Below, piece after piece: positions 16,656 through 27,449 of a stretch of 64,000 nt of DNA (its first letter is position 1; each line of letters starts with the position of its first letter). The notes under the pieces are model-generated. The model saw only the letters and a program-made list of their open reading frames with translations. It searched no databases and was not told the DNA's origin. The translations under genes were made by a program, and so were the position numbers. The DNA is from Alphaproteobacteria bacterium (GTDB taxonomy: Bacteria; Pseudomonadota; Alphaproteobacteria; GCA-2731375). Location of the stretch: contig JAJFGG010000161.1 in NCBI GenBank assembly GCA_021776235.1, positions 1-64,000 of the forward strand. Direction: 5' to 3'.

Positions 16656-16942
16656 GCTTATCCCTCCTCCAGTGGCTAGTCATTCTTTGGCGATTGTCGC
16701 ACGACATGATCCGCAGCGGATACTCACCCATCTGCCGGCAATAGTCGACCACGTGGTGCGCCGCGCCAAGGAAGCCTGCTATTCCCGCAGTTCGGACGGG
16801 GCAGGCCCACTGCGTCCATCACGACATTGCATATCCTGGCTTCGTTGACGCTCCAGAGCGGAGACCTCATAGTACCGCCGGTCTGGTAAGGCCGCTTGAA
16901 CGATGGCGATTTTAAGGATTTGGGCAAAATGGTAGCGTGTTT

Positions 16943-19033
16943 ATGAGTGATGGGGCGAGGCTGGCTGTCGATATCGGCGGCACTTTCACCGACGTGGTTA
17001 TGGAACAGGGCGGTGTTCAGGAAAGCCTGAAAATATTGACAACACCGGAGGCACCGGAAAGCGCGGTTCTCGAAGGCATCAACGAAATCCTGCAGCGGAC
17101 AGGCATCAATGCCTCGGATGTCGGGTTGGTCATTCACGGAACAACGCTCGCGACAAATGCCTTGATTGAACGCAAGGGCGCGCGCACCGCGCTGATTACG
17201 ACGGATGGTTTTCGCGACTCCATTGAAATCGCCTACGAACACCGGTTCGAACAATACGATCTGTACATGGAGCGGCCGCAGCCGCTGATTGAACGGAATT
17301 GGCGTTTTTCCGTTCCCGAGAGGATCGCAGCGGATGGATCAGTGCTGCTGGAACTTGACGAACAGGCCGTCCACGCATTGGCCGGCGTTTTGGGCAAAGC
17401 CGGCGTCGAGGCGGTGGCTGTCTGTTTTTTGCACAGCTACGTGAATCCGGACCATGAACGGCGGGCCGGCGCCATCCTGGCAGCGGCCCTGCCGCATGTT
17501 TCGATTACCCTGTCAGCCGATGTCTGCCCGGAGATCCGTGAGTACGACCGCATGTCGACGGCCTGTGCGAATGCCTATGTGCAGCCGATGATGGCGGGAT
17601 ACCTCATCCGGCTGGAAACCGGTCTGCGGGCCCGCGGCCTCGATTGTCCGTTGCTGCTGATGATGTCGAGCGGTGGGGTCACCACAGTGGAAACAGCCGT
17701 TGCGTTGCCGATCCGTCTCGTCGAGTCCGGCCCTGCCGGTGGCGCGATCCTGGCCCGCAACATCGCCCAGGAAAATGATCTAAGTAGAATTCTCTCGTTT
17801 GACATGGGGGGCACTACCGCGAAGATCACTTTGATTGACAACTTTCAGCCCCATATTGCGCGCTCGTTCGAAGTCGCACGAATGCACCGCTTCCTGAAAG
17901 GCAGTGGGTTACCATTGCGGATCCCGGTTATCGACATGGTCGAAATCGGTGCCGGCGGCGGCTCTATTGCCGCGGTTGATACGATGCAACGCATACAGGT
18001 CGGCCCGAAAAGCGCCGGGGCGGCACCTGGACCCGCCTGTTATGGCAATGGTGGCACTGCACCGACGGTGACAGACGCCGATACGGTTCTGGGCCGGATC
18101 GATCCGTCACGCTTCGCGGGTGGCCAAGTGACGTTGCAGCCGGAACGCGCGGCGGCGGCGGTCGAACGCGAAATCAGCGGCGCCTTGGGCGTGGAAACGA
18201 ATGTTGCCGCCGCGGGCGTTACGGAAATCGTCGATGAGCATATGGCCAATGCCGCGAGAATCCATGCGATTGAGAATGGCAAGGACATGGTCGGGCGTTC
18301 GATGGTTGCCTTTGGCGGCGCGGCGCCGCTGCATGCGGCGCGGCTTGCGGACAAGCTGGGGATCGACACTATTGTGGTGCCACAGGGTGCCGGTGTCGGT
18401 TCGGCAATCGGCTTTCTGCGGGCGCAAATTTCCTACGAAGTGGTGCGGACACGGTATTTGGATCTACGTGAATTCAACCCGGATACGGTCAACGATATCT
18501 ATGCCGGGATGCGGGCCGAGGCGGCTTCCGTCGTCCGGCTTGGTGCGCCGGACGAGCCCTTGCTCGAGACCCGGGGCGCTTTCATGCGCTACCGCGGACA
18601 AGGCCACGAGATCATGGTGTCAATGCCGGTCAGGGCATTGGCACCGGAGGATGGCGTGGCAATGGCAGGCTGGTTTGCCGATGCCTATAAACAGCTGTTC
18701 AGCCGCACCATTCCCAACCTCGGTGTCGAGGTTCTGACCTGGACGCTATCCTTGGCGACTGACAGGCCCGGGGCGGAACCCGCGCCACTGCAAAAGGTGC
18801 GCCATCACCCGGAACCGCAGTCCCAACGCAGGTTGTTTGATCCGGCCAGCGGTGCCTGGATCGGGGCGGACGTTTATTCACGGGCGGAACTGCGACCCGG
18901 TGCGGAGATCCAGGGGCCAGCGATTATCGTCGAGGATGAAACCACGACGCTGGTGACAAACGGTTTCGGCGCGACCATCAATGCGCTGGGTCAGGTCGTG
19001 ATGACCAGGGGCGAGGAGAGGAACCGGGCATGA
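16943..19033 (+). CDS. hyuA: hydantoinase/oxoprolinase subunit A (HyuA)
   Basis: ATP-using subunit of a hydantoinase, oxoprolinase or acetone-carboxylase-type complex, 696 aa. An ASKHA phosphate-binding motif opens the protein (LAVDIGGTFTDVV), with a second one at ILSFDMGGTTAKITLI. GAGGGSIA and GPACYGNGGTAPTVTDA are family hallmarks. The partner hyuB overlaps its stop by 4 bases (ATGA), so the subunits are made in step. ATG 16943 is chosen; GTG 16937 is equally possible since the ribosome site is weak. Such complexes hydrolyse cyclic amides (N-methylhydantoin, 5-oxoproline) with ATP. Which substrate is used here is not determinable. Confidence 0.88.
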   Translation: MSDGARLAVDIGGTFTDVVMEQGGVQESLKILTTPEAPESAVLEGINEILQRTGINASDVGLVIHGTTLATNALIERKGARTALITTDGFRDSIEIAYEHRFEQYDLYMERPQPLIERNWRFSVPERIAADGSVLLELDEQAVHALAGVLGKAGVEAVAVCFLHSYVNPDHERRAGAILAAALPHVSITLSADVCPEIREYDRMSTACANAYVQPMMAGYLIRLETGLRARGLDCPLLLMMSSGGVTTVETAVALPIRLVESGPAGGAILARNIAQENDLSRILSFDMGGTTAKITLIDNFQPHIARSFEVARMHRFLKGSGLPLRIPVIDMVEIGAGGGSIAAVDTMQRIQVGPKSAGAAPGPACYGNGGTAPTVTDADTVLGRIDPSRFAGGQVTLQPERAAAAVEREISGALGVETNVAAAGVTEIVDEHMANAARIHAIENGKDMVGRSMVAFGGAAPLHAARLADKLGIDTIVVPQGAGVGSAIGFLRAQISYEVVRTRYLDLREFNPDTVNDIYAGMRAEAASVVRLGAPDEPLLETRGAFMRYRGQGHEIMVSMPVRALAPEDGVAMAGWFADAYKQLFSRTIPNLGVEVLTWTLSLATDRPGAEPAPLQKVRHHPEPQSQRRLFDPASGAWIGADVYSRAELRPGAEIQGPAIIVEDETTTLVTNGFGATINALGQVVMTRGEERNRA

Positions 19034-20742
19034 GAGATACGAATATGGACCGGATCAGATATCAGGTCATGTGGGACAGGTTGCTCTCTGTCGTGGAGGA
19101 ACAGGCGCAGACGCTCATGCGTACGGCATTCAGCACGTCGAGCCGCGAAGCCGGCGATATTTCCGCCGGCGTTTTCGATCTCAAGGGCCAAATGCTGGCG
19201 CAGGCGGTCACGGGTACGCCTGGGCATATCAATTCCATGGCCCGGGCGGTCGTGCATTTCCTCGACGTCTTCCCTGCGGACATTATGAAGGATGGCGACA
19301 TCTACATCACCAATGATCCCTGGAAGGGAACGGGTCATCTGCATGATTTCACGGTTGTGACCCCCACCTTTCGGAACGGCGTGATGGTTGCGCTGTTTGC
19401 CTGTACCAGCCATGTCGTCGATATCGGCGGTGTCGGCATGTCGCCCGATGGCCGGCAGATCTATCATGAAGGATTGTCCGTACCGATCATGCCGCTGGCC
19501 GTGGCCGGCGAGATGAACGAATGGCTGTTGAACCTGGTCCGCGCCAATGTCCGCGAGCCGGTTCAGGTCGAGGGCGATATCTATGCCCTTGCCGCGTGCA
19601 ATGACACGGGCGCGCGCCGGCTGTTCGCGATGATGGATGAATATGATCTTGAAAATCTCGACGCGCTGGGCGCGCATATTATCGAGCAAAGCCAAACCGC
19701 GATCACGGCCGCGATCAATGCTCTGCCGCAGGGCAGCTGGAAGCATTCCATGCGCATCGACGGCTTCGAACAGCCGATCGATCTGGTTGCGAATTTGACC
19801 ATATCAAATGGCATCATTCACGTGGATTATGATGGCTCCTCGGGCACCTCGGACTTCGGGATTAACTGCCCCATGTGCTACACGGAAGCCTATACCGCAT
19901 TCGGCGTGAAATGCGTTGTTGCGCCAGAGATCCCCAACAATGCGGGGACATTGGATGCCATAACCGTGTCCGCGCCCGACCATACCATCGTCAATGCCCC
20001 GCATCCCTGCGCCGTGGTTGCACGCTCGACCATCGGCCATATGCTGCCCGACGTCATATTCGGTTGTCTGCATCAGGCATTGCCGGACCGAGTCCCGGCG
20101 GAAGGCACCTCGAACCTTTGGAACGTCAAACTCGGCGCCGGCCATGGTATTACCAAACGGACCGAGCATGATGCCACGGCATTTATGTTGATGAGCTTTC
20201 ACAGCGGCGGCGCCGGTGCGCGACCAAAACTGGATGGTTTGTCGGCGACGCCCTATCCAAGCGGCGTTCGCAATGTACCTGTCGAAATCAGCGAGGCGAT
20301 TACGCCGATTGTCGTGTGGCGAAAGGAATTGCGCATTGATTCCGGTGGCATCGGGTCACAACGTGGTGGCTTGGGGCAGACCATGGAGATAACCAGCCGC
20401 GAGGACGCACCGTTTGGTATCTTCGCGAGTTTCGAGCGTGTGCTGTTTCCGGCCCGTGGTCGCGATGGTGCGGGCGCCGGCGCGACCGGGCAATTGCGCC
20501 TTGGCTCAGGTGAAAACCTCAGAAACAAGGGTTTTCAAACAATTCCGGCGCGGGAGCGGCTGATTATTGAAATGCCCGGCGGTGGCGGCTTTGGCGACCC
20601 TAAGGCCCGCGATCCGGAGGCCGTAGCGACTGACGTGCGTCTTGGCCTTGTCAGCGCCGAGGCAGCGGCGCGTGATTATGGCGTCGTTGTAGGGGAAAAC
20701 GGGCAGGTCAATTCGCCGGCGACGGCGAAGAACCGGGGTTAA
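19030..20742 (+). CDS. hyuB: hydantoinase/oxoprolinase subunit B (HyuB)
   Basis: 570 aa catalytic partner of HyuA. Characteristic segments are STSSREAGDISAGVFD near the start, ITNDPWKGTGHLHDFTVVTP, FACTSHVVDIGGVG and the C-terminal IEMPGGGGFGDPKARDPEAV, all standard in the HyuB/AcxA-related family. The gene overlaps hyuA by 4 bases and ends 3 bases from the convergent FAD oxidoreductase gene. The length is as expected and nothing is broken. It works with HyuA in the cytoplasm. Confidence 0.88.
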   Translation: MRDTNMDRIRYQVMWDRLLSVVEEQAQTLMRTAFSTSSREAGDISAGVFDLKGQMLAQAVTGTPGHINSMARAVVHFLDVFPADIMKDGDIYITNDPWKGTGHLHDFTVVTPTFRNGVMVALFACTSHVVDIGGVGMSPDGRQIYHEGLSVPIMPLAVAGEMNEWLLNLVRANVREPVQVEGDIYALAACNDTGARRLFAMMDEYDLENLDALGAHIIEQSQTAITAAINALPQGSWKHSMRIDGFEQPIDLVANLTISNGIIHVDYDGSSGTSDFGINCPMCYTEAYTAFGVKCVVAPEIPNNAGTLDAITVSAPDHTIVNAPHPCAVVARSTIGHMLPDVIFGCLHQALPDRVPAEGTSNLWNVKLGAGHGITKRTEHDATAFMLMSFHSGGAGARPKLDGLSATPYPSGVRNVPVEISEAITPIVVWRKELRIDSGGIGSQRGGLGQTMEITSREDAPFGIFASFERVLFPARGRDGAGAGATGQLRLGSGENLRNKGFQTIPARERLIIEMPGGGGFGDPKARDPEAVATDVRLGLVSAEAAARDYGVVVGENGQVNSPATAKNRG

Positions 20743-22075: not shown

Positions 22076-23128
22076 ATGCCGCGCGAAGCCAAATCCGCTC
22101 TGACAGCATCTGATGTTAAGGCCAAGGCCCTGGAATTGGGCGCCGATCTGGTGGGTATCGCCTCGGCCAAGGTACTAAACGCATTTCCGCCCGATCCCAG
22201 GTATCCGCAAACGCCGGAGCGCATTTCGCCTCGGGTGAAAAGTGTCGTGGTGATCGTGCAGCACATTCCTGTCGCCGCGTTCCGTTGTAAACAGATGGTA
22301 CCGGTACAATACCTGGACATGATCGTACTGCGCCGCATGGACAAGGTCGCTGGACGCTTGGCCATGTGGATGGAGGAACGGGGCCACCCCAGCTTTGTTA
22401 CCGCCGCCCAGGAAACCGATTGGAACATGAAACGGGCCAGCTATGGCTACCTCAGTACCCGGCATCTGGGCATAGAGGCAGGCCTTGGCAGTTTTGGTCT
22501 GGAGGTCAATATTCTGACGCCTGAATTTGGCCCCCGGGTCTACCTCACAGGTATACTGACCGAGGTGGAATTGGAGGCCGACGGCCCCATGCAGGAGCAG
22601 GTCTGCATCGGTGAAGGTTGTTCCCGGTGCCTGTATTCCTGTCCCGGCGATGCGGTTGGCCATTTTGATATCGATAAGCCGGCCTGTGCCGAATTTGCCC
22701 AGGAATTCGGCTATATGACCGTGACGGCAATGTTGCAGAAATTCGCCAAGGCCGATAAGGCCGGGAAAATGCAAATGCTGACGTCGCGGGATTTGTTCGG
22801 CTTTTGGCAGGGCATTTTGCGCGTGGTCGGCTCGTTTGGCGATTGCCCCCGCTGCCTGGCCGTTTGTCCCGTCGGCGTCGATTACCATGCATTTCTGGCC
22901 GATGATCAAAAGCACATTCCGGAAAAGACCCCGGAAAAGGTGGCCCTGGGGCAAAAATTCAAACAATCCCGCAAGAATAATGAAGAAATTCCTGGCCTGA
23001 ACGATTGGAACATTCGCTGGGTCGGGCCCGCAGGCTATACCGGTCAGGCGGCGAAGACGGTTCGGCAAAACTTCAGGGACGAGCAAAAACGTTTAATCCA
23101 GGCGGCCGAATCCGCCGACGGCGAATAA
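22076..23128 (+). CDS. QueG-like/reductive dehalogenase-like [4Fe-4S] protein, first of a pair
   Basis: 350 aa. The N-terminal part (AKALELGADLVGIASAKVLN) resembles the start of epoxyqueuosine reductase (COG1600) and of reductive dehalogenase catalytic domains. Two iron-sulfur motifs follow: C177-x4-C182-x2-C185-x3-C189-P, and C257-x2-C260-x3-C264-P. The HEAT-repeat tail of true QueG is absent and there is no Tat signal, so it is a cytoplasmic redox protein that may bind a corrinoid. Its neighbour 21 bases downstream is a paralogue with the same layout. ATG 22076 is preferred over upstream GTG or TTG codons. The substrate is unknown. Confidence 0.72.
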   Translation: MPREAKSALTASDVKAKALELGADLVGIASAKVLNAFPPDPRYPQTPERISPRVKSVVVIVQHIPVAAFRCKQMVPVQYLDMIVLRRMDKVAGRLAMWMEERGHPSFVTAAQETDWNMKRASYGYLSTRHLGIEAGLGSFGLEVNILTPEFGPRVYLTGILTEVELEADGPMQEQVCIGEGCSRCLYSCPGDAVGHFDIDKPACAEFAQEFGYMTVTAMLQKFAKADKAGKMQMLTSRDLFGFWQGILRVVGSFGDCPRCLAVCPVGVDYHAFLADDQKHIPEKTPEKVALGQKFKQSRKNNEEIPGLNDWNIRWVGPAGYTGQAAKTVRQNFRDEQKRLIQAAESADGE

Positions 23129-23149
23129 TACTCTCGGGATCGCATCAAG

Positions 23150-24136
23150 ATGGACAAGGTATACGGCGCCCCCCTCACGTCTGATCGGATCAAGGATCAG
23201 GCGAAAAGCTTTGGCGCCGATGTCGCCGGTATTGCCGACGGCAAGGTGATGGACGAATACCCGCCTGATCCGGCAAATCCACGACGGCCGCTGGATGTGA
23301 CTGACTACGACGGCGGTCGGGCGATCGTCTTGGGCAAGCGCCTGTTGTCCGGGCCCACGCGGTTGCCTCGCTGGAACGAACGGCACAAGTATTACAACGA
23401 CGAACTGACCCTGACCATGCTGGAAGAAATTGCATTGGAAATGGTCCTTTGGTTGGAGAAACAGGGCTATCCGGCTCTGATCATTCCACCAACTCATGTT
23501 GACCCCTGGCTCTATTTCGGCGAACCGGCGGCGCATCTCTCGCCCCTCTTGTCAGCCTCTCATGCAGCAGTGGAAGCGGGCCTGGGCACACTGGGCTTGA
23601 ACGGCCAGCTGCTGACGCCCGAATTCGGCCCGCGCCTGATGGTGACCATAATCCTCTGTTCAATTGATGTGGCACCCGATAGCCGGATGACAGAACCCTT
23701 GTGCCACGGACCCGATTGCGGGCGCTGTCTCAAGGCCTGTCCCGGCGACGTCATCGGGCACTGGGACCGCGACTGGCAGGGCTGCGATCGATACCGCTCC
23801 CCGCATGGTTTCAAGGAGGTCTCGGACTTCCTGCAAAAAGTACTGGAAGCGCCCGACAGCGATGCGCAGATGAATTTGGTGCGTTCGGAAGAAAGCTTCA
23901 ACATCTGGCAAAGCACCTTGCGGGGCGCGGGCGTGGTAACCGGCTGCCGGCGCTGCCAGGACGTCTGCCCGGTGGGCGCAGACTATGCCGTTATGCTGGA
24001 AGATGCCCTTGATGACATCGCCGAGGACAATGCCGGTAAACAGTCACGCTTGGCCGATATGATCGATGCGGAAACCAAGGGCCAAATGCCGGACGCGTAT
24101 TTGCGGCAACTGCGCTGGATTGGGGATCGATCATGA
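23150..24136 (+). CDS. QueG-like/reductive dehalogenase-like [4Fe-4S] protein, second of a pair
   Basis: 328 aa paralogue of the preceding gene. It shares the opening (IKDQAKSFGADVAGIADGKV), the central VEAGLGTLGLNGQLLTPEFG segment and the cysteine spacing C185-x4-C190-x2-C193-x3-C197-P and C266-x2-C269-x3-C273-P. Three long insertions/deletions distinguish the two, so they are old duplicates rather than a recent copy. It is followed 25 bases later by a PaaK-like CoA ligase in the same direction. The three genes are likely one operon, suggesting a redox step on an activated carboxylic or aromatic acid. No signal peptide. Confidence 0.72.
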   Translation: MDKVYGAPLTSDRIKDQAKSFGADVAGIADGKVMDEYPPDPANPRRPLDVTDYDGGRAIVLGKRLLSGPTRLPRWNERHKYYNDELTLTMLEEIALEMVLWLEKQGYPALIIPPTHVDPWLYFGEPAAHLSPLLSASHAAVEAGLGTLGLNGQLLTPEFGPRLMVTIILCSIDVAPDSRMTEPLCHGPDCGRCLKACPGDVIGHWDRDWQGCDRYRSPHGFKEVSDFLQKVLEAPDSDAQMNLVRSEESFNIWQSTLRGAGVVTGCRRCQDVCPVGADYAVMLEDALDDIAEDNAGKQSRLADMIDAETKGQMPDAYLRQLRWIGDRS

Positions 24137-24161
24137 CCGAAGGCAAATCGAAGGCGGCGGC

Positions 24162-25451
24162 ATGCCCTTGAAGCTGCCGGAAAGCCGCGAAGACATCAGG
24201 CGCCTGCAATCCGCGCGCAAACGTGTCGCCGTGGAGCGGGCTTTGGCGTCGCCGTTTCACCGGGCGCGCATTCCCCATGACATCGATCTCGACCGCTTGG
24301 ACGATCCGGAGGAATGGCACCGTATTCCGGTCTTCGACAAAGAGATGCTGCGAGCGATCCCAGCGCAGGATTTTCTGAGCACCTTTTGCACGGCCCAGCG
24401 TACGGACATCGCCGAATTGTGGCGCTCCGGCGGGTCCACGGGGCTGCCCCTGTTTTATCCCAGAACCTTTCGCGATATGGATTATGGCCGCTTGTCCTTC
24501 GTCCGGGTTTTTCAATGCGCCGGCGCGACGGCGGCGGATACGGCTCATGTCTCTTTCCCATTGGGGATCCATCCGGTGGGCCACCTGATGGCGCGGGCGG
24601 CGCAGTCCATCGGCATCGGCGTCAACTGGGCCGGTGCCGGTAATTCGACGCCGTCGGCGGCGCAAATCGATCTGATAAACATGTTGGCTCCAACCATCTG
24701 GCTGGGTATGAGCAGTTACGGCCTGCATCTGGCGAACTTGGCCGAAGCAGACGGTATTGATCTGGCCAACGGTTCTGTAAACACCCTGATCTGTTCCGCC
24801 GAACAGGTCACCGAAGCCAAGCGCTGCAAGATAGAACGTATCTGGGGCGCCGAGCTGTACGATAGCTTCGGCATGACAGAGGCCGGCATGATGGGCTGTG
24901 AAGGCAGCGCCCACGATGGCTTCCACATCTGGACGGATATGTATTTTATCGAGGTGCTGGACCCTGACACATTAATGCCCGTGGCCGAAGGCGAACCGGG
25001 CACCCTGGTTGTTACGCCCTTGTGGACCAACAACGCCACGCCGTTTATCCGATGGGTGTCCGGCGATATCGTCGTTTACCGTGAACACGGGGACAGCGCC
25101 GGGCCTTTCTCGGTCTTTCCCTTGATCAAGCATACCCATCGCACCGCCGGGTTCTTCAAATTGCGTGGCGTCAACATGAACCATACGGAGTTTGAAGACT
25201 TCATGTTCGGCCACGATAATATCGCCGACTTCAAGGTGGAACTGGTTACCCGCGGCGATCTGGAGGATCTTGACGTTTTCGTCGAACTACCGGCGCATGA
25301 AGATGCTGCGGCGGTGTGCAGCGCGCTTCGGGAAAGCATCCGAAATACCTTCGAGGTAACGGCCCGTATCGAAGTCCTGGATCGGGGCACCTTGGCCCGT
25401 GAGTTTGAGCAAGACGTCAAGGCGCAACGGTTTCTCGACAAGCGCGTCTGA
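24162..25451 (+). CDS. PaaK-like AMP-forming CoA ligase
   Basis: 429 aa. The adenylate-forming enzyme signature SGGSTGLPLFYPRT (P-loop), YDSFGMTEAGMMGCEG (A5-like motif) and a GDIVVYREHG segment place it with phenylacetate-CoA ligase-type enzymes. These activate an aryl or acyl carboxylate with ATP and CoA. The start at ATG 24162 has AAGGCGGCGG just upstream; the longer frame running into the preceding gene is ignored. It is the last gene of the Fe-S operon and is convergent with the DUF3604 gene. Confidence 0.78.
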   Translation: MPLKLPESREDIRRLQSARKRVAVERALASPFHRARIPHDIDLDRLDDPEEWHRIPVFDKEMLRAIPAQDFLSTFCTAQRTDIAELWRSGGSTGLPLFYPRTFRDMDYGRLSFVRVFQCAGATAADTAHVSFPLGIHPVGHLMARAAQSIGIGVNWAGAGNSTPSAAQIDLINMLAPTIWLGMSSYGLHLANLAEADGIDLANGSVNTLICSAEQVTEAKRCKIERIWGAELYDSFGMTEAGMMGCEGSAHDGFHIWTDMYFIEVLDPDTLMPVAEGEPGTLVVTPLWTNNATPFIRWVSGDIVVYREHGDSAGPFSVFPLIKHTHRTAGFFKLRGVNMNHTEFEDFMFGHDNIADFKVELVTRGDLEDLDVFVELPAHEDAAAVCSALRESIRNTFEVTARIEVLDRGTLAREFEQDVKAQRFLDKRV

Positions 25452-25517: not shown

Positions 25518-27449
25518 CTATCCCGACGGCGTGTACCAGATAGGCGACGTGTAGGCACGTTCCTGGTGGCTCAAGGGAACCTGTTCAGGCATCTTGATGC
25601 GGAAGAATTTGGCATCATAGGCCTGCCAGGTCGGTGTTGGGATTTCAAGCACCCGGGCGTAATAGACGGATCGATGCGCCGGGTTGAAGTCAGGGTCTAT
25701 CCAAACACTACGTAACTCGGCATCGCCAATATTGTTGAGGTAAGTGGCATTTGCCTCATCCACGGTGCTGCCCACGGGGGTCTTGCAGCGTCCGTCAGCG
25801 TCGATTTTTCGGCCATCGGAAACGGCCACGTCATATACCCTTTCATGCCTTTTGCCATTCTCGTCGACCCAACCTTTGACAATCTGAATACGATCGAGAT
25901 TCCCGGACCAGGCGTCCTTGAGCGCGCCAACCATGAACACCGGCGCTTTCTTTCCCGCAGGTGGGCTGGGTAGATCACTCCCCATGGGCACCCCCTTGCG
26001 GTAACCAATCGCTAACGCGTCCGGGCGAAAGACCTCATCCGCACCGTAGTCCCAGCCACCAAAGAAACGCACCGTGATCCGTGTCCCGGTGGTGGCGTAA
26101 GTCTCTTTTTTCTGCATTGCTTCGAAGAGCGCCTCGCGGGTATTTTCACGGGCCCAGACGCCGGCCAGCCCGGAGGCAAGCGTTTCCCACGAGTATGTCG
26201 TCAGCGCTTCGTTCCCGGCGACGGAGCCAATTACCACATGTTCCCAGCGATCGGCCGACGGCTCCATGGTCGGCGTTTTGCTCCAGTTGTTTTCGTCCCG
26301 GGTCGTGGCCAGCGAGGTATGTGCGTCGGTGCTCCCGATCATGCCAAACTTGTAAGGGTTGACGCCAAACTTCTGCTCCAGCTGCTGGCCCAGTTGAAGC
26401 GCGGTGCGGGCATATTCGTACTGCAGCATCCAGTCCTCTTTGGGCTTGAGGCCGGCGATGTCGCCCTTGTCCCAGGTGCCGTAATCGGCAAACTCGTCAT
26501 TGGGCGAGAGGAAAGGATGCGCTTCGCCGTCGCCTTTCATCTGGGTGACTTCGTAGAGCGGTTCCGAACGGATCCGCGCCGCGGCATATTCCCGGTCAAT
26601 TGGCTCGCCGTTCAGACGCTCGAGAGGGAACATCTGCCCATTCGAGACATTGCCGTTGTGGGCGATGGCGAGCACGCTGCCGCCAGTCTTCTCTTCGTAG
26701 TTTGCAAGGTATTCCCACAACTTCTCGGGATCATTCGAGTGCACCGTGCTGAAAGGCAGGACCTGTCCGGCTTTGTCCTTGCCGTCCTTGAAGATGACGA
26801 CGCGATGCAGATTGCCCGGTCTTTTGGAGGTGGCAATCGAGCTCCATTCGAAGCCGACCAAGGCGGTGAACCGGCCAGGCTCGTTGTATTTCTCGGCGAA
26901 GGCGATTTGCCGGTCCCAGACTGTGCGGGTCATCTTCCGGTTGTCGATCGGGTCCTTGTTTACGGTAACGGCGTCTTTCAGCCATTGCTGGAACGCCTCC
27001 CGGCCTTTGCCGGCCTTCACCAGGTCGTGGACCTTCCGGCCCCACTTGTTTTTGAGGAGTTCCGGGTTGGACTCTGCGATCATGACGGAGAGTCCCAAGT
27101 TCTCGGCGTGATCGGCGACCACGAGGAAGTCCAGGGGTCGGATCAGACGGGCCCGGAGTCCCGCAGCGGACCTGACCTCCTCACCCCTGGCAAATCGATA
27201 GGCCTCTTCCGGGCCGAGGGTATTGCCGAGCATGCCGGAATCGGTGGAATAAGAAGTGTGTAGATGGGTGTCGCCCCAATAGACACCTTCCGCAAGGTTG
27301 GCGTCGCTGGCGGTCCTCTCCACCTAGGGAGAGTAAATCTTTGGCCGTTCGAGTACCCTGCCGGGATTGACGTCCTGTGCCATTGCATGGCTCGAGGCGG
27401 CCAAGGCCAGAGCCGCCAAAAAACACCCTGATTTAACTGCTCTTGTCAT
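25518..27449 (-). pseudogene. DUF3604 protein with in-frame amber codon after the signal peptide
   Basis: The reading frame from ATG 27449 encodes a signal peptide (MTRAVKSGCFLAALALAA, then SSHAMA) and the linker QDVNPGRVLERPKIYSP. It then meets TAG at 27326-27324 (codon 42). The same frame continues for 601 codons with VERTASDANLAEGVYWGDTH and LHTSYSTDSGMLGNTLGPEE, the conserved DUF3604 domain, whose HLHTS motif is PHP-like and metal-binding. Related proteins commonly have a tyrosine at this place, so TAT/TAC to TAG is the likely change. Without readthrough the exported enzyme is lost, or a GTG-initiated cytoplasmic form is made. The domain itself shows no further damage. Confidence 0.8.

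Follow-up and report, generated by a model that had tools for sequence, protein, structure and literature searches.

What do two consecutive QueG-like iron-sulfur proteins do directly in front of a PaaK-like coenzyme A (CoA) ligase? The question is raised by a window of 64,000 nucleotides (nt), positions 1 to 64,000 of contig JAJFGG010000161.1 (assembly GCA_021776235.1) from an Alphaproteobacteria bacterium, in which three open reading frames (ORFs), ORF1, ORF2 and the ligase gene (LIG), lie in tandem on the plus strand, as an initial annotation made from the sequence alone had placed them. The gap between ORF1 and ORF2 is 21 nt; the LIG frame is open from 24066, and the family alignment favors the ATG at 24162 as its start. 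The feature coordinates are collected in Table 1. At roughly even odds (a probability of about 0.5), we consider ORF1 and ORF2 to be a heteromeric corrinoid/iron-sulfur reductase whose substrate would be an aromatic acid or the corresponding CoA thioester, in a catabolic cassette with the PaaK-like ligase. The fold and the clusters are already known from other proteins; the function, which we put forward as a proposal, would be the new part.

Predicted fold and family placement of ORF1 and ORF2

AlphaFold models of both proteins were built from deep alignments of the window and locus sequences, and the Foldseek matches were re-aligned for Z-scores. The models, with mean predicted local distance difference test (pLDDT) values of 84.8 for ORF1 and 89.9 for ORF2, have QueG and the reductive dehalogenases (RDases) as tied best structural matches (Z 17–18, 204–243 residues), followed by the B12 chaperones CblC/MMACHC at Z ~10. 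The ORF1 model gives Z 17.7 both to QueG (5d6s; 204 residues, 2.7 Å) and to the RDase 8q4h, and the ORF2 model gives 17.9 to 8q4h and 17.7 to 5d6s. Modeling, which the initial annotation had suggested as a check, recovers for both proteins the cobalamin class III fold, with a predicted corrinoid domain and a two-cluster ferredoxin domain. Such likeness of fold is by itself no demonstration of function. The structural match to QueG stops near residue 273 of ORF1 and residue 283 of ORF2; a Pfam search found no HEAT match in either protein, and no twin-arginine (Tat) signal was seen at either N terminus, in agreement with the first description of the pair as lacking both the HEAT tail and the Tat signal.

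Eight cysteines are invariant in each protein (80/80 ORF1 and 78/78 ORF2 sequences), which, as judged from the alignments, is enough for two [4Fe-4S] clusters per chain. In QueG, one cluster is bound by C184, C187, C190, and C243 and the other by C194, C210, C236, and C239 (PMC4646009), and the order and spacing of the cysteines in ORF1 and ORF2 match both. The cysteine layouts had been described correctly at the outset except that one invariant residue was omitted from each, C204 of ORF1 and C212 of ORF2, and these are expected to complete the second cluster as its fourth ligand. Beyond the cysteines, positions conserved in at least 98% of sequences number 119 of 350 in ORF1 (80 sequences) and 76 of 328 in ORF2; ORF1 is the more strongly conserved and the likelier of the two to be the catalytic subunit. 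Tyr79 of ORF1, in the motif V-Q-Y-x-D, is at the expected place of the catalytic Tyr of QueG, a placement made by spacing only and not by structural superposition.

In sequence searches of Pfam, NCBIfam, and the PDB, the two proteins come out near QueG and the RDases but far below the family cut-offs. Fer4-type [4Fe-4S] domains are matched in both (ORF1 below the curated cut-off), and ORF1 and ORF2 reach 48.6 and 38.7 bits with the QueG model TIGR00276 (cut-off 200) and 28.3 and 25.0 bits with the RDase model TIGR02486 (cut-off 160). In a tree of 59 sequences, the ORF1 clade (support 99/100) and the ORF2 clade (100/99) are sisters (99/99), as expected of the ancient paralogues that they had been called, and the RDase clade (99/99) excludes them; several long branches in this tree leave the deeper order and joins unsure. 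By family score and by tree, therefore, the pair is neither QueG nor RDase, as had been supposed. An identity as genuine QueG is rejected on the scores, the missing HEAT tail, the tree, and the presence of a separate QueG (422 bits, cut-off 200) elsewhere in the same genome (G000:C3). The finding that would have spoken for it, a grouping with QueG in a genome with no other queG, was not made.

Other QueG-like sequences were encountered during these searches. Four same-genus genomes, most of them without ORF1 and ORF2, contain another QueG-like family of 382–425 amino acids (aa) that has only one standard C-x2-C-x3-CP group (L015, L017, L018, and L028). Among plasmid records, the QueG-like matches were all weak. 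Two plasmid genes of Priestia megaterium (NZ_CP048889.1:36447-36920 and NZ_CP058266.1:85068-85541), annotated as SCP2 sterol-binding, match ORF1 at ~28% over 45% of its length.

Table 1. Features of the ORF1-ORF2-LIG cassette, in window coordinates
Feature	Position	Strand	Remarks
ORF1	22076..23128	+	ATG start at 22076; 350 aa; double [4Fe-4S] protein with predicted class III cobalamin (QueG/RDase-like) fold
ORF1 first cysteine group, C177-x4-C182-x2-C185-x3-C189-P	22604..22642	+	invariant, 80/80
ORF1 C204, candidate eighth ligand	22685..22687	+	invariant, 80/80; same place in the cysteine order as QueG C210 (PMC4646009)
ORF1 second cysteine group, C257-x2-C260-x3-C264-P	22844..22867	+	invariant, 80/80
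ORF2	23150..24136	+	328 aa; paralogue of ORF1, again with eight Cys and the same predicted fold; second subunit (proposed)
ORF2 first cysteine group, C185-x4-C190-x2-C193-x3-C197-P	23702..23740	+	invariant, 78/78
ORF2 C212, candidate eighth ligand	23783..23785	+	invariant, 78/78
ORF2 second cysteine group, C266-x2-C269-x3-C273-P	23945..23968	+	invariant, 78/78
LIG, PaaK-like AMP-forming acyl/aryl-CoA ligase	24162..25451	+	429 aa

Conservation of the tandem and linkage to the ligase

A scan of 84,980 species yielded 80 species-level loci with 61–89% identity, mostly from Alphaproteobacteria with some from Beta- and Gammaproteobacteria, SAR324, and Rokubacteria; the hosts are mostly marine and soil bacteria. 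Gene calls on the high-GC loci lose genes to antisense ORFs, and the presence of core genes was taken from tblastn. One contig (L105) is labeled Candidatus Dependentiae and has an alphaproteobacterial-looking cassette, and is probably misbinned. ORF1 and ORF2 are in tandem in 79 of the 80 loci, the exception (L097) being a contig that ends inside ORF2, and conservation to this extent excludes chance. L113 and L114 encode them as a single fused ORF of 675–684 aa. Because of the tandem and these fusions, we read ORF1 and ORF2 as subunits of one enzyme, presumably a heterodimer.

The domains and motifs of LIG place it in the AMP-forming acyl-CoA ligase (ANL) superfamily: AMP-binding (PF00501) is matched with 39.3 bits (cut-off 29.9) and AMP-binding_C_2 (PF14535) with 25.4 bits (cut-off 25), structures of PaaK are matched over the full length, and the P-loop WRSGGSTGxPLFYP, the motif DxFGMTE, and the C-terminal Lys are conserved. 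These domains and motifs are shared with PaaK and PaaK-like ligases (TIGR02155; 4r1l and 2y27; 2-hydroxyisobutyryl-CoA synthetase, 6hdw), but LIG scores only 146.2 bits against the TIGR02155 cut-off of 646 and forms a conserved family of its own that is tied to ORF1 and ORF2.

An orthologue of LIG is located at most 6 kb from the pair in 62 of the 80 loci, and in 55 of these it follows the pair immediately, in the same orientation. Next to the pair in six other loci is a different CoA ligase, which belongs to the benzoate-CoA-ligase family in L102, L113, L117, and L122, to another AMP-forming type in L114, and to another PaaK-like type in L119. Among 385 genomes of the class, in which ORF1 was counted if full length, ORF1 was found in 11 and LIG in the same 11 (hypergeometric 2e-21, kinship ignored), and sister species in the genus of the window that lack ORF1 also lack LIG. 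In one genome (G001) LIG is present but is elsewhere in the genome. The linkage on which the initial annotation had made its proposal depend is strongly conserved.

LIG orthologues are also found beside other genes. In L080 (13404-15333), L058 (13275-14524), and L179 (6703-10025) the neighbor is a third QueG-like type of ~300 aa with a different first cysteine group; L080 also has a transglutaminase-like gene, L080 and L058 have a small conserved protein of 110 aa, and L179 has two genes of the third type in tandem. In L090 (13818-14927), L178, and L182, a MetE-like gene (PF01717, cobalamin-independent methionine synthase domain) adjoins LIG.

Genomic context and the proposed reaction

The genes that recur near the pair point to aromatic-acid catabolism. 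Among the 80 loci they include Liv-type ATP-binding cassette (ABC) transporters (15–18 loci), PRK08255, an enzyme of the salicylyl-CoA 5-hydroxylase/2-aminobenzoyl-CoA monooxygenase-reductase type (seven loci), and kynureninase (five loci), together with members of the benzoate-CoA-ligase family, acyl-CoA dehydrogenases, crotonases, MarR and TetR regulators, and RDases. The CoA-linked aromatic route that was first envisaged therefore finds its support in these neighbors from other genomes and not in the surroundings of the window. There, the glutathione S-transferase, intradiol dioxygenase, CoA transferase, and crotonase genes were rejected as conserved context: they lie on the other strand, and their association with the cassette is not repeated in other loci. 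A large DUF3604 protein (763 bits; 25518-27323, minus strand) lies directly downstream of the cassette and is not conserved with it, and a hydantoinase A/B-type pair at 16937-20742 most resembles the subunits of caprolactamase, at 489 and 222 bits and thus under the cut-offs of 1000.

We propose that ORF1 and ORF2 would together form one soluble reductase, each subunit having a nitroreductase-like corrinoid-binding domain and a two-cluster ferredoxin domain. An aromatic acid would be imported and converted by LIG to the CoA thioester, and the enzyme, operating in the reductive direction and probably after the ligase, would remove or reduce a group of either the acid or its thioester. Low-potential electrons would reach the corrinoid through the four [4Fe-4S] clusters of the pair, and the product would then enter an aryl-CoA pathway.

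Several observations weigh against this proposal. R305 of PceA, the active-site Arg of the RDases, aligns in ORF1 with Tyr156 (conserved in at least 98% of sequences) and in ORF2 with a variable residue, and the DYH motif of QueG is not retained as such in the pair; therefore the chemistry of neither RDases nor QueG can be transferred to it. The presumed active-site loop of ORF1 (residues 114–124) is modeled with low confidence, and no cobalamin riboswitch was found in the window or in the four other cassette loci in which it was looked for. Three same-genus relatives (L044, L045, and L048) and a few other loci have the pair without an adjoining ligase, and no LIG orthologue was found anywhere in G002 and G008. 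Lastly, genome size and kinship weaken the association of ORF1 with PRK08255 described below: counted by genus and roughly corrected for size (the genome-size fraction being estimated from 46 genomes), its value is ~0.003, and it is suggestive only.

The group on which such an enzyme would act could be a halogen, the pair catalyzing CoA-dependent reductive dehalogenation of a halogenated aryl-CoA or aromatic acid. The fold is shared with RDases, many hosts are marine, and RDases (E threshold 1e-30) are present in 5 of 7 ORF1 genomes as compared with 16 of 190 overall; immediately after the pair in L096 comes a genuine RDase gene (175.6 bits with TIGR02486, cut-off 160), and RDase homologues occupy this place in L095 and L173. 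However, any RDase in these loci is encoded by its own gene next to the pair, suggesting that the pair itself has another role, and most loci have no adjacent RDase. Together with TIGR02486 scores of 28 and 25 bits and the replacement of the Arg corresponding to R305, this makes dehalogenation by the pair unlikely. The operon in L173 (1303-10156, minus strand) is compact and comprises an ORF1/ORF2 pair of a second type, the RDase, a 562-aa acyl-CoA dehydrogenase, an AMP-forming ligase, and a thiamine pyrophosphate (TPP) enzyme of the acetolactate-synthase type. The genome of the window itself holds two RDase-family genes, at G000:C172:4450-5169 (170 bits) and G000:C49:15099-15650 (long catabolic type, in a frame of 740 aa).

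Alternatively, the substrate may be an aryl-CoA from which the pair reductively removes an epoxide or a ring substituent other than halogen (an amino or a hydroxyl group), thereby feeding a 2-aminobenzoyl-CoA or a similar pathway from tryptophan/kynurenine or indole compounds. PRK08255 is present in 11/11 ORF1 genomes versus 75/385 overall and kynureninase (E <1e-40) in 10/11 versus 78/385, and both genes occur near the cassette in some loci. There are precedents for both kinds of reaction: QueG itself performs cobalamin-dependent epoxide reduction (PMC4646009), and in Azoarcus evansii 2-aminobenzoyl-CoA is converted anaerobically to benzoyl-CoA by reductive loss of the 2-amino group (PMC4539516). 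Against this, PRK08255 and kynureninase adjoin the pair in only a minority of loci, some PRK08255 loci have a second ligase of their own, both genes are also found in several ORF1-negative genomes, and the association may reflect large, catabolically rich genomes. In this specific form the reaction seems to us improbable.

Least probable is a role of the pair outside catalysis, in which ORF1 and ORF2 would transfer electrons or handle a corrinoid for another enzyme, such as the adjacent RDase or an oxygenase. In favor of this, four clusters would make a good electron wire and the fold also matches CblC/MMACHC; against it, no partner other than the ligase recurs and the presumed ORF1 pocket is surrounded by a long set of invariant non-Cys residues typical of an active site.

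Relation to known systems

In the literature, the cobalamin class III family is divided between the RDases and QueG (PMC7585037). The pair resembles QueG (TIGR00276; 5d6s and 5d08) in its predicted corrinoid-binding nitroreductase-like fold, its eight cysteines for two [4Fe-4S] clusters, and the lack of a Tat signal, but differs in having no HEAT tail, in its low score, in its separate clade, in being duplicated, and in its linkage to a CoA ligase. With the RDases (TIGR02486; PceA 4uqu, NpRdhA 4ras, and 8q4h) it shares the fold, with the same Z, and a TPEFGPR-type motif, and the cytoplasmic catabolic RDases likewise lack a Tat signal; it is distinguished from them by its score, its separate and well supported clade, the Tyr or variable residue at the R305 position, its two subunits, and again the ligase. 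The aerobic 2-aminobenzoyl-CoA pathway of A. evansii (PMC4539516) also involves a CoA-activated aromatic acid and a PRK08255-type enzyme, and crotonase and acyl-CoA dehydrogenase genes are neighbors in some cassette loci, but no QueG-like pair is described in that work. In open PubMed Central papers we found no QueG-like paralogue pair, no cluster of an RDase with a PaaK-like ligase, and no characterized pathway with this arrangement.

A wider interpretation, which we offer tentatively and consider doubtful, is that the pair represents a third functional branch of the class III enzymes, a heteromeric, ligase-coupled reductase of aryl-CoA or aromatic acids in aerobic bacteria that catalyzes neither dehalogenation nor epoxyqueuosine reduction. 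If so, the class would gain one more branch, a duplicated, sometimes fused pair that is tied to aryl-CoA ligases across many Proteobacteria, and the cassette would likely contribute a new reductive step to aromatic-acid degradation in marine, sponge, and soil communities. The gene set of two subunits and a ligase is present in cultured hosts such as Amorphus coralli and relatives of Tateyamaria and Aestuariivita, in which these proposals are testable.

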